Source of the DNA: Oscillatoriophycideae cyanobacterium NC_groundwater_1537_Pr4_S-0.65um_50_18
GTDB taxonomy: Bacteria; Cyanobacteriota; Cyanobacteriia; Elainellales; Elainellaceae
Direction: 5' to 3'
Assembly (NCBI GenBank): GCA_016208305.1
Contig: JACQYI010000009.1
Location: 372,001-436,000 of the forward strand
Length of the DNA: 64,000 nucleotides
The position numbers and the translations under genes were made by a program. Positions 24,508 to 54,845 of the stretch are shown piece by piece (position 1 is the stretch's first letter; each line of letters opens with the position of its first letter). The notes beneath the pieces were generated by a model. It searched no databases. It was not told where the DNA came from and was given only the letters and a program-made list of their open reading frames with translations.

Positions 24508-27500
24508 TTAGCCGATGATAAAGTTTGTAGAGCGGACATTGCCGATCGCCGTTTTTTCCACCGTTACCAGCGTTGTAAATTGCGTACCGCTACCGCTACC
24601 ATCCGCGTCAATCTGCACTTGAGTGTTGGCACCCACCTGCACCAGTTTCACAAAGTCGTGATATCGAGCAAAACGGTTGTCGCCTTTGAAGGGAGATGCC
24701 TTAAAGATACCCCGCAGGTCGATCAAGTCGTTGGCGCTGTCAAAGCCGCGAATCCGATCGCCTTTCTCCTTCAGGCTGTTGAAGGTGAAGGTATCTTTGC
24801 CGCCGCCACCCACCAGGATGTCTCGGCCTAGGCCACCCGTTAGGACATCATCTCCGCGATCGCCCCGCAGACGATCATTGCCTTTGCCTCCTAGCAGACG
24901 ATCGTTTTTGCTGCCCCCAAACAGGCGATCGTTGTCACTGCCCCCTAGCAGACGGTCTTTGCCAAAGCCGCCTCGCAAGTCATCTTTGCCCGTACCGCCC
25001 AAGAGTCGATCGTTGCCTTTGCCAGCCAGCAGGCGATCGTTACCGCCAAATCCTCGTAAGGTATCTTGCTTGCTGCCGCCTCGCAAAGAACCACTGCCAT
25101 TATTGCCATCAATGACAGTACCGCGCTTTTTGCCAAACCGAATTACAGATCGAGCATCAGCGGTGTAACCCGTCAGCCACGTATCGCTAGCCCCTGTCAC
25201 TAGCACATTCCCTGCGGCATCTTTGACTTTCCCTGACTTGATGCTGATTTGATAATCTCCACCATTTTGGGTAAATCCAGGAATATTGGCCAGGGTCCAA
25301 GTCTGAGCATCGGTGCTGCTCAAGACGGCTCCTTGCAAAGCGACAGGGTTGCCATTCAGCGTTAGCACCACCTCTGAGACATCAAAGTTGCTCACAGCTT
25401 CATTGAACTGGAATTGGATAGCATTGACGCTACTCTCGCGGATGTCGGCACCAAAATCGAGAATCTTGACGGCAGCAGGTTTGGTATCGATAACCAAGGG
25501 CTTTGCCTGTGTCACAGTACTGACGTTGCCGGCAGCATCGGTCGCCTTGAAGGTGATGGGGTAGGTACCATCTGCCAGTGTTGTGGTAGGCGTGAAACTC
25601 CATTTGCCCGTCGCATCAACGGTAGCAGTCCCTAAAGGCGTGGTGCCTGCAAAAACTTGAACTGTGCTACCGACTTCAGCGGTACCGCCTAGAGTGGGGG
25701 TAGCATCATTGGTGAGCGTAGCACCTGTACCTGTTGTGCCTGTGCCTGTTGTACCTGTGCCTGTTGTACCCGTACCCGTGCCAGGATTGCCTCCTGTAGG
25801 TGCTGGGGGCGTTGTGGCATCGATCGCCACCAATAATCCAGACGACTGGGAGCTTTCATTGCCAGCCAAATCTTTAAAGGTGCTGGTAATTGTGCGATTG
25901 CCGCTAGATAGAGGCGAAGTTGTCACTGACCAAGACCCATTGGCAGCAATAATCCCTGTCCCTACCGCAGCACCATTTGCGTAGAGGGTGACAATCTCTC
26001 CGGCGATACCGCTACCGGGTGCGCCCTTGAAAGTCAGCGTACTGTTTTTCGTAATGTTGTCTGTATTGGACAATCCACTGTCGCTAGCAGCATCCAGGTC
26101 GGGCGCAAGAGCAGGCGCTGTGGGTGACGTTGTGTCAAGCGTGATCGCTAGCCCCGTCGAGGGAGAGCTTTCGTTACCAGCCAGATCTTTGAAGGTACTC
26201 GTGAGGGTGTAATTGCCATCACTGAGGGTAGAAGCCGTGACTGACCAAGCCCCATTGACATCGACAGTGGTAGTGCCTACAGATACGCCATCCGCGTAGA
26301 GGGTGACAATATCCCCTGCAGTACCGCTGCCGGTAAAGGTGGGGGTAGCATCACTCGTGATGTTGTCTGTGCTGGAAGCCCCGCTATCGCTGGCAGCCGT
26401 CAGATCGGGAACCATTGCACCCGTTGGGGTGACGGTATTCAGGGTAACTGTCAACGCTGGTGAGGGGGTGCTTTCGTTGCCAGCTGCATCCTTGAAGGTG
26501 GTGGTGATCAGACGATCGCCACCGCTGAGGGGTGAAGCCGTGATCGACCAAGTGCCATCGTTTGCAACAGTGGCAGTACCAACCGCATTACCATCGGCAT
26601 AGAGGGTGACGGTATCGCCTGCGGTACCGCTGCCTGTAAAGGTGGGGGTAGCATCCTTGGTGATGTTGTCTGTGCTGGAAGCTCCGGTATCGCTAGCGGC
26701 ATCCAGGTCAGGGGCAACGGTGGGCGCTGCAGGAGCAGTCGTGTCAATGTCGATCGCTAGTCCTGTCGAGGGAGAGCTTTCGTTGCCAGCCGCATCTTTG
26801 AAGGTGCTGGTAATGGTGTGCGTGCCATTGCTGAGGGTAGAAGCCGTGACTGACCAAGAACCATCGGCTGCAACCGTGCCTGTGCCGATCGCAGTAGTGC
26901 CGTCATAAAGCGTGACAGTATCGCCAGCGATACCGCTACCAGCCGCGCCTACAAAGGTAGGGGTGGTGTCCTTGGTATTATCGTCTGTGCTGGAAGCTCC
27001 GGTATCGCTAGCGGCATCCAGGTCAGGAGCAACGGTGGGCGCTGCGGGAGCAGTCGTGTCAATGTTGATCGCCAGCCCCGTTGAGGGAGAGCTTTCATTG
27101 CCAGCCGCATCTGTAAAGGTGCTGGTAATGGTGTGCGTGCCATCGCTGAGGGTAGAAGACGTGATCGACCAAGAGCCATTGGCTGCAACCGTACCTGTCC
27201 CGATCGCAGTGGTGCCGTCATAAAGCGTGACGGTATCGCCTACGGTACCGCTGCCTGTAAAGGTAGGAGTAGTGTCCTTGGTGATGTTATCTGTGCTGGA
27301 AGCGCCAGTATCGCTAGCGGCATCTAGGTCAGGAGCAACAGTGGGTGCTGCGGGAGCAGTCGTGTCAATGGTGACACTCAGGGCATCTGAGGCATTGCTT
27401 GTGTTCCCTGCTATATCCGTTGCTGTAGCAGTGAAACTGTAGTTTTGTGAAGAAAGAGAGGTATTTGTGTAGTCAAATGACCAATTACCCTGATTGTCTG

Positions 27501-51527: not shown

Positions 51528-53435
51528 GTGGCTCAGATTTCTCCCAATCCCAATCCCGCAGGCAATACGATTACTGTTCCGAATGTAGACTCAAACAACG
51601 CTTTTTTTCTTAATCAAGGCACCATTAGCATTCTTAAAGATGCCAACTTCTTGAATTTCAGCACCCTCCAAAATGACGGCACCATCATCAATGACGGCGA
51701 GTTCAATAGTTTTGAGGGCGTACTCGAAAATAACGGCACCTTCATCAATAACGGCATCTTCGAAAATAGCGTCAGAACCCTCAACAATACAGGCACCCTC
51801 AACAATAATGGCATTCTCAGCAGTGGCTCCTTCGCCAACAATTACGGCATCCTCAATAATTTCAGCACAGGCACTCTTAACCTTCAATTTCAATTTTTCA
51901 ATTACGGCATCCTCAACAATTACGGCATCCTCAACAACGACGACCCCCTCTTCTCCAATTTAGGCGACCTCAACAATACAGGCACCCTCAACAACAACGA
52001 AACCCTCTTCAACATCTCCACCCTTACCAATGATGGCACCCTCAATAATACAGGTACCCTCAACAATTTGGGCGACCTCAACAATAACGACACCCTCAAC
52101 AATATAGTTACTCTCACTAACACAGGTACCCTCAATAATATAGGTACTCTCACTAACACAGGCACCCTTGCAAACAATAAAACCCTTACTAATGGGGGCA
52201 CTATCAATAATGAGAGCACCTTCACGAATGGGGATACTCTTTTTAATAACGGCACCCTGGCTAATACTGGCACCCTCACGAATGGAGGCAACTTTTTTAA
52301 TAACGGCACCCTTACGAATACTGGAGCCGGTAGCTTTGTCAATAACGGCACAATTGCTGGAACAGGTACATTTGTAGGCGCACTATCAGGCGGTACGGTT
52401 GCCCTTGGGCACGCAGCAGACCCGCACGCTACCTTTACCGTCGATGGCACCTTTACCCTGGGCACGCTCAATATCTCCTTCAATGGGACTGAAGCCGGTG
52501 ACTTTGATCTACTCAGTGTCACGGGTGCAGCTAATCTTCCTTCAGGCACAATTAACTTCAACTTTGACGAAGAAGGACTGAAAAACGACATTGCAGAAGG
52601 GGAAACAGAATCTATTACTTTCCTTACAGCTGGCACCCTCAGCAACTCACTCAACTTAGTAAGCCTCACTCCCATTGATGATGGAGATAATGGAGCTGAT
52701 TTTGATTTCGTCCTGCGGCAAGACGGCACCAACTTAGTCTTAGATATCACTCGCCCAAGTCCTAATCAAGCCCCAATTGCCACCGACGACACCTTTTCTA
52801 TCCGCAAAAACGAAACGGTTAACCTGACTGTACTTACCAACGATAGCGACCCCAATAGTGACACGCTAACCATCACTGGTATCGGCAATTTAGCTCCCTC
52901 TGTGGGTAGTCTCACCAACAATGGAACATCGATTACCTTTAATCCAGCTGATAACTTCAGCGGAGATACAACCTTCGAGTACACTATTAGCGATGGTAAG
53001 GGCGGCACCGATACCGCCAGCGTCGTTGTCTCTGTCGGAACTGTACAAGGCCCTGCCAACGGTAATAACAGATATGAAGGCAACAACGGCGATGACTTGC
53101 TGGATGGTGGCAATGGCGATGATACGCTCATTGGCAATGGCGGCAACGACACGTTGATTGGCGGTAACGGAAACGATCGGCTGATTAGTGGCGGAGGCAA
53201 TGACACCGTTACCGGAGGAAAGGGTGCTGATATCTTTGCGATCGCTTCTGATGGCAGCACCGATACCTTCACTGATTTTAGTGTTGCTCAAGGGGACAAA
53301 ATTGGACTGAGCGGGGTGCAGTTTAGCCAACTTAGCTTCTCTGGCAATCAAATCTTCTTTGGCAGCACAGCACTAGCCACCTTGAATAGTGTAAATACCT
53401 CTTCCTTGACTGCGGCAAATTTTGTCACTGTTTAA
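51528..53435 (+). CDS. RTX/cadherin-like secreted protein with hexapeptide-repeat N-terminus
   Basis: Putative secreted protein of 635 residues; GTG start with AAGGA upstream. Residues about 28-275 are a run of six-residue repeats with consensus G-T-L-x-N-N/T (NTGTLNN, GDLNN, TLTNTGTLNN), rich in Asn, Gly and Thr, encoded by an 18-base DNA repeat; a beta-solenoid is likely. Then a beta domain (about 285-410), a cadherin-like/tandem-95 domain (about 420-507, APIATDDTFSIRKNE, VLTNDSDPNSDTLTIT, FNPADNFSGDTTFEYTISDGKGG), and RTX calcium repeats (about 515-570, GNNGDDLLDGGNGDDTLIG). No signal peptide: type I export is likely. A terminator follows. Confidence 0.9.
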   Translation: MAQISPNPNPAGNTITVPNVDSNNAFFLNQGTISILKDANFLNFSTLQNDGTIINDGEFNSFEGVLENNGTFINNGIFENSVRTLNNTGTLNNNGILSSGSFANNYGILNNFSTGTLNLQFQFFNYGILNNYGILNNDDPLFSNLGDLNNTGTLNNNETLFNISTLTNDGTLNNTGTLNNLGDLNNNDTLNNIVTLTNTGTLNNIGTLTNTGTLANNKTLTNGGTINNESTFTNGDTLFNNGTLANTGTLTNGGNFFNNGTLTNTGAGSFVNNGTIAGTGTFVGALSGGTVALGHAADPHATFTVDGTFTLGTLNISFNGTEAGDFDLLSVTGAANLPSGTINFNFDEEGLKNDIAEGETESITFLTAGTLSNSLNLVSLTPIDDGDNGADFDFVLRQDGTNLVLDITRPSPNQAPIATDDTFSIRKNETVNLTVLTNDSDPNSDTLTITGIGNLAPSVGSLTNNGTSITFNPADNFSGDTTFEYTISDGKGGTDTASVVVSVGTVQGPANGNNRYEGNNGDDLLDGGNGDDTLIGNGGNDTLIGGNGNDRLISGGGNDTVTGGKGADIFAIASDGSTDTFTDFSVAQGDKIGLSGVQFSQLSFSGNQIFFGSTALATLNSVNTSSLTAANFVTV

Positions 53436-53531: not shown

Positions 53532-53600
53532 ACGTAGCCCTTTAGTACTTTACAAGACAAGGTAGAGTCTCAGTGGAATACCAGCTAACAATTAATAGGC

Positions 53601-53760
53601 TGAAAGTTTCCGTATAACACTTCAGAGAAGGCAGATATACCGAAACTTTCCGTATAACACTCTGATTTGGGCATATAGGCAGAATCTTTCCACATAGTAT
53701 GCCGATTTAGGTAGATAGGCGGAAAGTTTCCGCATATTTTCAGATTTAGTACGCAGTCAA
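53601..53760. repeat. Four 40-bp direct repeats with dyad cores
   Basis: Copies begin exactly at 53601, 53641, 53681 and 53721. Each starts with a near-palindrome NGAAASTTTCC: TGAAAGTTTCC, CGAAACTTTCC, AGAATCTTTCC and GGAAAGTTTCC, the last a perfect dyad about a central base. The cores continue CGTATAACAC in copies 1 and 2; copy tails converge on GATTTAGG and AGATAGGC. Sequence drifts between copies but the 40-base period does not. The array lies 47 bases before the integrase pseudogene start. Confidence 0.85.
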
Positions 53761-53807
53761 TTTATGTAATATCTAATACATATGGATTGTTGGTGTCTCC
53801 CTTCGTT

Positions 53808-54320
53808 ATGCAAGAAAGTCCTAAAAAACTTCTAGATCAGGTGCGAGATGCGATTCGGTTAAAACACTACGCCTACCGGACTGAAGAAACCTACGTGCAA
53901 CGGATAAGACGCTACATCTTGTTCTATAACAAGCGACATCCCAACGAGATGAGAACGGCTGAGATTGAGGCATTTCTCACCCATCTTGCTGTCCAAGGGC
54001 AAGTTGCGGCTTCAACTCAGAATCAGGCGCTCAGCGCTCTGTTGTTTCTTTATCACGAGGTATTGGTTCAAGAGATTGCCAATGTTGATGCGATTCGAGC
54101 CAAACGCACGCACTACTTGCCGACTGTTTTAACCAAGGCAGAGGCGATCGCAGTCATTCAACATCTGTCTGAGGTGCATCAATGAGTCGTGAAGCTGCTT
54201 TACGGGGGTGGCTTGCGATTAATTGAAGGAGTGCGCTTACGGGTTAAAGACATCAGTCGTGGGGGAAAAGGGGCGTGGAGGAAAAGGGGTTCGCAGTCCG
54301 CTACATGTGTAGAAGGGTGA
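53808..54320 (+). pseudogene. Broken integron-type tyrosine integrase
   Basis: Residues from ATG 53808 match the N-terminal SAM-like domain of integron integrases: PKKLLDQVRDAIRLKHYAYRTEETYVQRIRRYILFYNKRHP, EIEAFLTHLAVQGQVAASTQNQALSALLFLYHEVL, then RAKRTHYLPTVLTKAEAIAVIQHL. A TGA at 54183-54185 interrupts the frame where the catalytic domain begins. The same frame continues past it with VVKLLYGGGLRLIEGVRLRVKDIS, the box I region with the first catalytic Arg, then loses all similarity and stops at 54318-54320. The HxxR and Tyr motifs are absent. It is therefore a stop-interrupted and C-terminally truncated remnant. Confidence 0.88.
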
Positions 54321-54389
54321 ATAGAGGCGATCGCCCCCCTCAAACATCAAAAAATCCTGACAAAAGCTGTAACAAATTTCTCAGTACGC

Positions 54390-54419
54390 TTGCATTGATG
54401 CCCGGTTTTATTTTATGCT
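54390..54419 (+). promoter_or_regulatory. Candidate promoter for structured leader
   Basis: TTGCAT (54390-54395) and TATGCT (54414-54419), 18 bases apart. A start six to eight bases on would place the RNA 5' end at the first hairpin, near 54427. Confidence 0.5.
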
Positions 54420-54426
54420 TTCCCGA

Positions 54427-54594
54427 ACTGGTGAGACGCCAGTGAAACGAGCTTAAGGTATGGACGCGGCTGCGGGGGCTACCAAACACCCCACAACCGC
54501 TAACCTGCCGTTCTGGGCAAGCAGAAGGCTGGCTGAGTTGATTTTAAGTCATCGAATGCCTTGCTAATGCAAAAACAAGTGGTTGGCTAACCAC
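54427..54594 (+). ncRNA. Candidate structured 5' leader RNA
   Basis: Four hairpins in 168 bases: ACTGG/CCAGT (54427-54443); GCGGCTGCGGGG with CCCCACAACCGC (54466-54500, two C-A mismatches on this strand, G-U on the other); CCTGCCG-TTCTG with CAGAA-GGCTGG (54504-54532); GTGGTT/AACCAC (54579-54594). They lie between a candidate promoter and the small protein gene 50 bases on. I cannot match it to a known riboswitch or RNA family. Confidence 0.4.
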
Positions 54595-54644
54595 GCCTTA
54601 AGCTTTTCTTCTCTACAAATACCCATTAGCAAGGTAATACCATC

Positions 54645-54845
54645 ATGACGACAGAGTTCAACGAACTGCTGACAGACCATCCTGCCGATCGATCGCAGAT
54701 CTGGCTCATTGGCACCAGCGATCAGGTGATGCATTTGATCAACGAATGCTACGTGAAAGGATTGACGGACGATCGCGCCAAGTTCACCCCTATCATTCCC
54801 CTACCCTTTGGCAACGGTAAGTACATGACGATATTGGTGCGATAA
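54645..54845 (+). CDS. 66-residue protein, function unknown
   Basis: Small soluble acidic-neutral protein: MTTEFNELLTDHPADRSQIW, then LIGTSDQVMHLINECYVKGLTDDRAKFTPIIPLPFGNGKYMTILVR. Predicted mixed alpha/beta. Codon use and the regular hydrophobic pattern suggest a real gene, and AAGG lies upstream of the ATG. It resembles small proteins I recall from cyanobacteria but I cannot name the family or assign a function. It is preceded by a structured leader and converges on glcF with a 9-base gap between stops. Confidence 0.7.
   Translation: MTTEFNELLTDHPADRSQIWLIGTSDQVMHLINECYVKGLTDDRAKFTPIIPLPFGNGKYMTILVR

Follow-up and report, generated by a model that had tools for sequence, protein, structure and literature searches.

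The segment at 53583-54845 of the window (the whole 64,000-nucleotide stretch of cyanobacterial DNA analyzed here) is very probably a decayed integron platform, one of about 17 relic attI loci of a dispersed platform that tends to lose its integrase gene, intI. The original prediction had allowed for a decayed integron, and this is borne out by an attI array, an IntI remnant with its C-terminal tail, and an anatomy shared with other intI genes. The comparisons below document the anatomy, kinship, copy number, and loss of intI of this platform. In our model, such a platform of Leptolyngbyaceae-like cyanobacteria would consist of attI (a crossover plus an array), intI, and, behind these, orf66 preceded by its RNA leader. 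If intact, IntI would integrate circular gene cassettes at AAC, following the known integron mechanism, here extended to this family. The window intI is dead, with a stop codon, internal deletion of the remaining catalytic domain, and a frame-shifting duplication; the platform would have been copied to many places and then lost intI by deletion, leaving attI behind. The features of the window copy are as follows.

53583-53589, plus strand: R box AGCTAAC of the putative attI, with the crossover triplet AAC at 53587-53589 (GTT on the other strand); from the sequence, a match to model R1, and the boundary at 37 relatives' loci.
53590-53754, plus strand: putative attI repeat array of four tandem 40-nt units with partial dyad symmetry; from a repeat search (spacing 40/40/40).
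53808-54257, plus strand: N-terminal part of the intI pseudogene (~150 codons, to box I and KDIS); from the TIGR02249 match and the tree.
54183-54185, plus strand: in-frame TGA inside the intI pseudogene; from the sequence.
54258-54289, plus strand: frame-shifting 16-bp tandem duplication at the deletion junction; from a repeat search and the sequence.
54274-54312, plus strand: IntI C-terminal tail RGGKGVRSPLHV and stop; from comparison with relatives' C-termini.
54325-54644, plus strand: promoter-like region and predicted structured RNA leader of orf66; from a dispersed repeat in the same genome and covariation.
54451-54458 with 54596-54603, plus strand: leader helix P1; from covariation.
54559-54569 with 54624-54634, plus strand: leader helix over the Shine-Dalgarno region; from covariation.
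Near 54479-54485 and 54516-54521, plus strand: two leader hairpins with variable loops.
54645-54845, plus strand: orf66, a 66-amino-acid small protein with no assigned family; from the open reading frame, which follows full-length intI in other genera.

The stretch at 53808-54312, C-terminal tail included, is a cyanobacterial intI pseudogene with a TGA, an internal deletion, and a duplication. Its read-through translation matched the integron integrase model TIGR02249 with 172 bits (E value of 1.5e-50, model positions 1-144 of 315) and Phage_int_SAM_4 of Pfam at 4e-30, while XerC/XerD models reached E values of about 1e-10. After LLYGGGLRLIEGVRLRVKD and KDIS, the codons jump in frame to the RGGKG of the IntI C-terminus. 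The second copy of the 16-bp duplication reads RGGKGVRSPLHV-stop, like the C-terminus RGGKGVRSPLDx of relatives. Since this tail is present after the jump, the gene was internally deleted and not merely cut off. About 155 codons are missing between the N-terminal part and the tail, with box II and the catalytic tyrosine gone, and box I alone is left of the catalytic set R..H.xR..Y. The IntI-specific additional domain around patch III lies within the deleted stretch, and the window copy is therefore a pseudogene of the family and not a working member. The frame, the coordinates, and the TGA agree with the original prediction, as does box I being reached after the TGA, but similarity does not end there as had been stated; the tail had been overlooked.

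Given the shared tyrosine recombinase domain and the weak XerC/XerD matches, one could read the fragment as an ordinary Xer or phage integrase. There is practically no chance of this, as the IntI model is ahead by about 40 orders of magnitude, and the tree places the window copy inside a nine-row cyanobacterial IntI clade together with full-length IntIs (support of 100/99) and far from the other tyrosine recombinases of its own genome. Thus, the remnant is of the integron type, as first proposed.

The accompanying statement that integron integrases are uncommon in cyanobacteria did not hold for this lineage. Matches to intI with an E value of 1e-10 or better were found in 37 of 60 relatives and in 24 of 36 genomes of the same family. 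The search for an intact copy succeeded in a genome of the same genus (G002), which has a full-length intI, and the insert specific to IntI (e.g., RKYPNANREWIWQYVF) is present in the nearest full-length relatives. No full-length intI was found in the window's own genome, an assembly of 85 contigs; some of these contigs end inside the repeats described here, so a full-length intI could be absent from the assembly. This genome has a second, different intI 5′ fragment at about 100-616 of locus L147 (G000:C62), with its own divergent upstream repeats and joined to the same leader-orf66 element as the window copy. Cyanobacteria are listed integron hosts, and in one survey roughly one in three known intI genes was a pseudogene, some of them arising via within-genome duplication (PMC2426708). 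Taken together with the matches among relatives, this means that an intI remnant in itself is not unusual in this lineage.

The attI site sought beside intI is present at 53583-53754 as a crossover, an R box, and an array, placed and formed as at other intI genes. We used model R1, a sequence-only model of the crossover plus two units that was built partly from sites of this genome; its match begins at the window R box (E value of 1.0e-14), and the 40-bp units themselves occupy 53595-53754. Upstream of many cyanobacterial intI genes from many genera, we found the same order of an AAC crossover, an AT-rich stretch, and then repeat units with partial dyad symmetry, mostly spaced at 40, 41, or 42 nt. 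The unit model found no units in 18 of 54 intI upstream regions. Judging by position and sequence, we take the 40-bp array and AAC to be the attI of the window intI, and its units are predicted IntI-binding sites. The attI1 site of class 1 integrons likewise has an AAC/GTT crossover in an R box and extra adjoining repeats (PMC8946536, PMC4792948), of which there are two, DR1 and DR2 (PMC8946536). In contrast to these two short direct repeats, the arrays here have partly dyadic units of about 40 nt, of which up to six were detected. Palindromic units of a similar kind occur upstream of intI at Chloroflexota loci (L055 and L061), so this attI form may reach beyond cyanobacteria.

Two unusual repeat families had been noted near the remnant. 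One is the attI array; the other, with 18-bp repeats (NNGTLNN) at 51.7-52.3 kb, sits inside an RTX-type gene (51528-53435) that also encodes Ig-like and calcium-binding domains. This gene ends ~150 bp before the attI crossover, and together with a likely terminator it abuts the site. At 26081-27370, the window has a further tandem array, made up of about four units of 315 bp. With a home-made attC scan, which is a crude detector, we found no credible attC or cassette beside the window copy; one weak candidate was 6 kb off, inside a coding region. The same scan of this genome and G005 gave 7 matches compared to 1.6 in shuffles, which is too crude for cassette claims. By our home-made detection, attC-like folds were weakly enriched overall on the cassette side (22 versus 12). 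With a fold cutoff of −0.39 kcal/mol per nt or lower, picked after seeing the data, the count was 8 versus 0. We infer that the attI sites once captured cassettes.

Model R1 matched in 49 of the 60 relatives and not at all in the remaining 11, and all attI counts depend on this one sequence model. In the window's own genome, the matches group into about 15 loci. Adding a site on C19 and the divergent C62 site, which adjoins the second intI fragment, brings the total to about 17, two of which have intI fragments. Elsewhere, there were roughly 10 loci in the closed genome G011, about 5 in G005, 4-6 in G053, and 1 in G057. Several attI loci are thus found in closed relatives, yet full-length intI occurs at most once per genome, and several genomes have attI loci without any intI match. 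At 37 relatives' loci, AGCNRYYY precedes AAC, and nothing is conserved farther left. Conservation left of AAC therefore stops after an attC-type R box, as expected if each site bears a different cassette or flank. An intI 5′ stub was found at 203-225 nt from AAC in 5 of 53 loci, and by our reading of C55 and C73 from this genome, scarcely more than the intI start is left (a start-codon remnant). Most attI loci have no recognizable intI piece, and several in this genome are visibly decayed. These loci indicate that intI was repeatedly deleted while attI was retained, which would explain why so many of the intI matches in relatives are N-terminal fragments.

The intI-free sites could instead be kept as landing sites that are served in trans by one IntI encoded elsewhere. 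This would fit closed G011, with its many attI loci and one full-length intI, and the strong attC-like folds restricted to the cassette side (with the post hoc cutoff given above). We consider this arrangement unlikely, because several genomes with attI loci lack any intI match, no full-length intI was found in the window's genome, and several of the loci have visibly decayed.

Relic loci of a copied platform, the reading that we prefer, are illustrated by the closed genome G005. At four loci there, units start at the attI crossover, share an identical internal intI deletion followed by the RNA leader and orf66, and finish with the stop codon of orf66; the flanks are unrelated on both the left and the right. 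These shared ends and the shared deletion indicate that the platform, or parts of it, was copied within the genome; other copies begin nearer the orf66 promoter. No target duplication was seen at the G005 units. For the window copy, no empty insertion site was found in congeners, in which the flanks are not conserved.

The leader of orf66 showed 48 double-change cells compared to 17.0 in shuffles and 8 or fewer with the structure slid, a covariation pattern that argues for a structured RNA. Near-identical leader copies from G005 (L208-L221) differ almost only in the two apical loops, which vary completely. We examined the variable loops as guides to the right flank, and matches were not above shuffles. 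It is possible that every leader copy regulates its own translation, for which it would require a loop pair of its own. Rfam gave no credible match on the window, nor with loose limits on the locus. For orf66, there was no significant match in Pfam, NCBIfam, PHROGs, or PDB sequences, and a Foldseek search of the PDB with an AlphaFold2 model (mean pLDDT of 78) likewise gave nothing significant. Our literature search, which covered few subscription papers, returned nothing on orf66. The gene is the immediate 3′ neighbor of full-length intI in G032 and G012. Further cyanobacterial intI genes have members of the wider orf66 family within the next 1.5 kb downstream, in some cases in the opposite orientation, and copy number is high in some relatives (62 in G032 and 40 in G025).

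These copy numbers, and the many occurrences of orf66 and orf79 without attI or intI, raise the question of whether the leader and orf66 are an independent amplifying element that merely neighbors intI, with the 40-bp array as a generic dispersed repeat. The opposite orientation of some family members near intI and the many R1 loci without an intI piece would agree with this. However, many genera have the array in the interval from the AAC crossover to the intI start, nothing beyond the R-box pattern is conserved left of AAC, intI stubs occur at the expected distance, and G005 has attI, the deleted intI, the leader, and orf66 copied together. We therefore regard full independence as improbable. 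Another reading, which we consider improbable, is that attI, intI, the leader, and orf66 form one mobile unit whose internally deleted copies seed attI landing sites for a single IntI acting in trans; the two-loop RNA and orf66 would then serve in mobility or its control.

As in other chromosomal integrons, attI adjoins intI here, intI pseudogenes occur, and the hosts are cyanobacteria (PMC2426708). The differences are the tandem-array attI, the many loci mostly without intI, and the RNA-orf66 unit 3′ of intI. CALIN are also integron relics without intI; they are defined by clusters of attC, while the loci described here are recognized by attI. Few good descriptions exist of attI sites other than those of class 1, and IntegronFinder does not detect them (PMC9024848). 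While cyanobacterial integrons and intI pseudogenes were already known, our search, covering few subscription papers, found no earlier report on repeat-array attI or intI-free attI sites in cyanobacteria. What appears to be new is that array-bearing attI sites have been multiplied and mostly freed of the integrase in this cyanobacterial group. Our attI model reaches sites that lie outside the scope of standard integron software (PMC9024848). Linked to the platform are an RNA that shows covariation, with no match in Rfam, and a family of small proteins, with no match in Pfam, NCBIfam, or PHROGs. Gene capture and expression at integrase-free attI loci, and multiplication of the platform inside the chromosome, can now be tested. 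With R1 matches this widespread among the relatives, including several without a detected intI, integrons may have shaped these genomes beyond what intI counts indicate.
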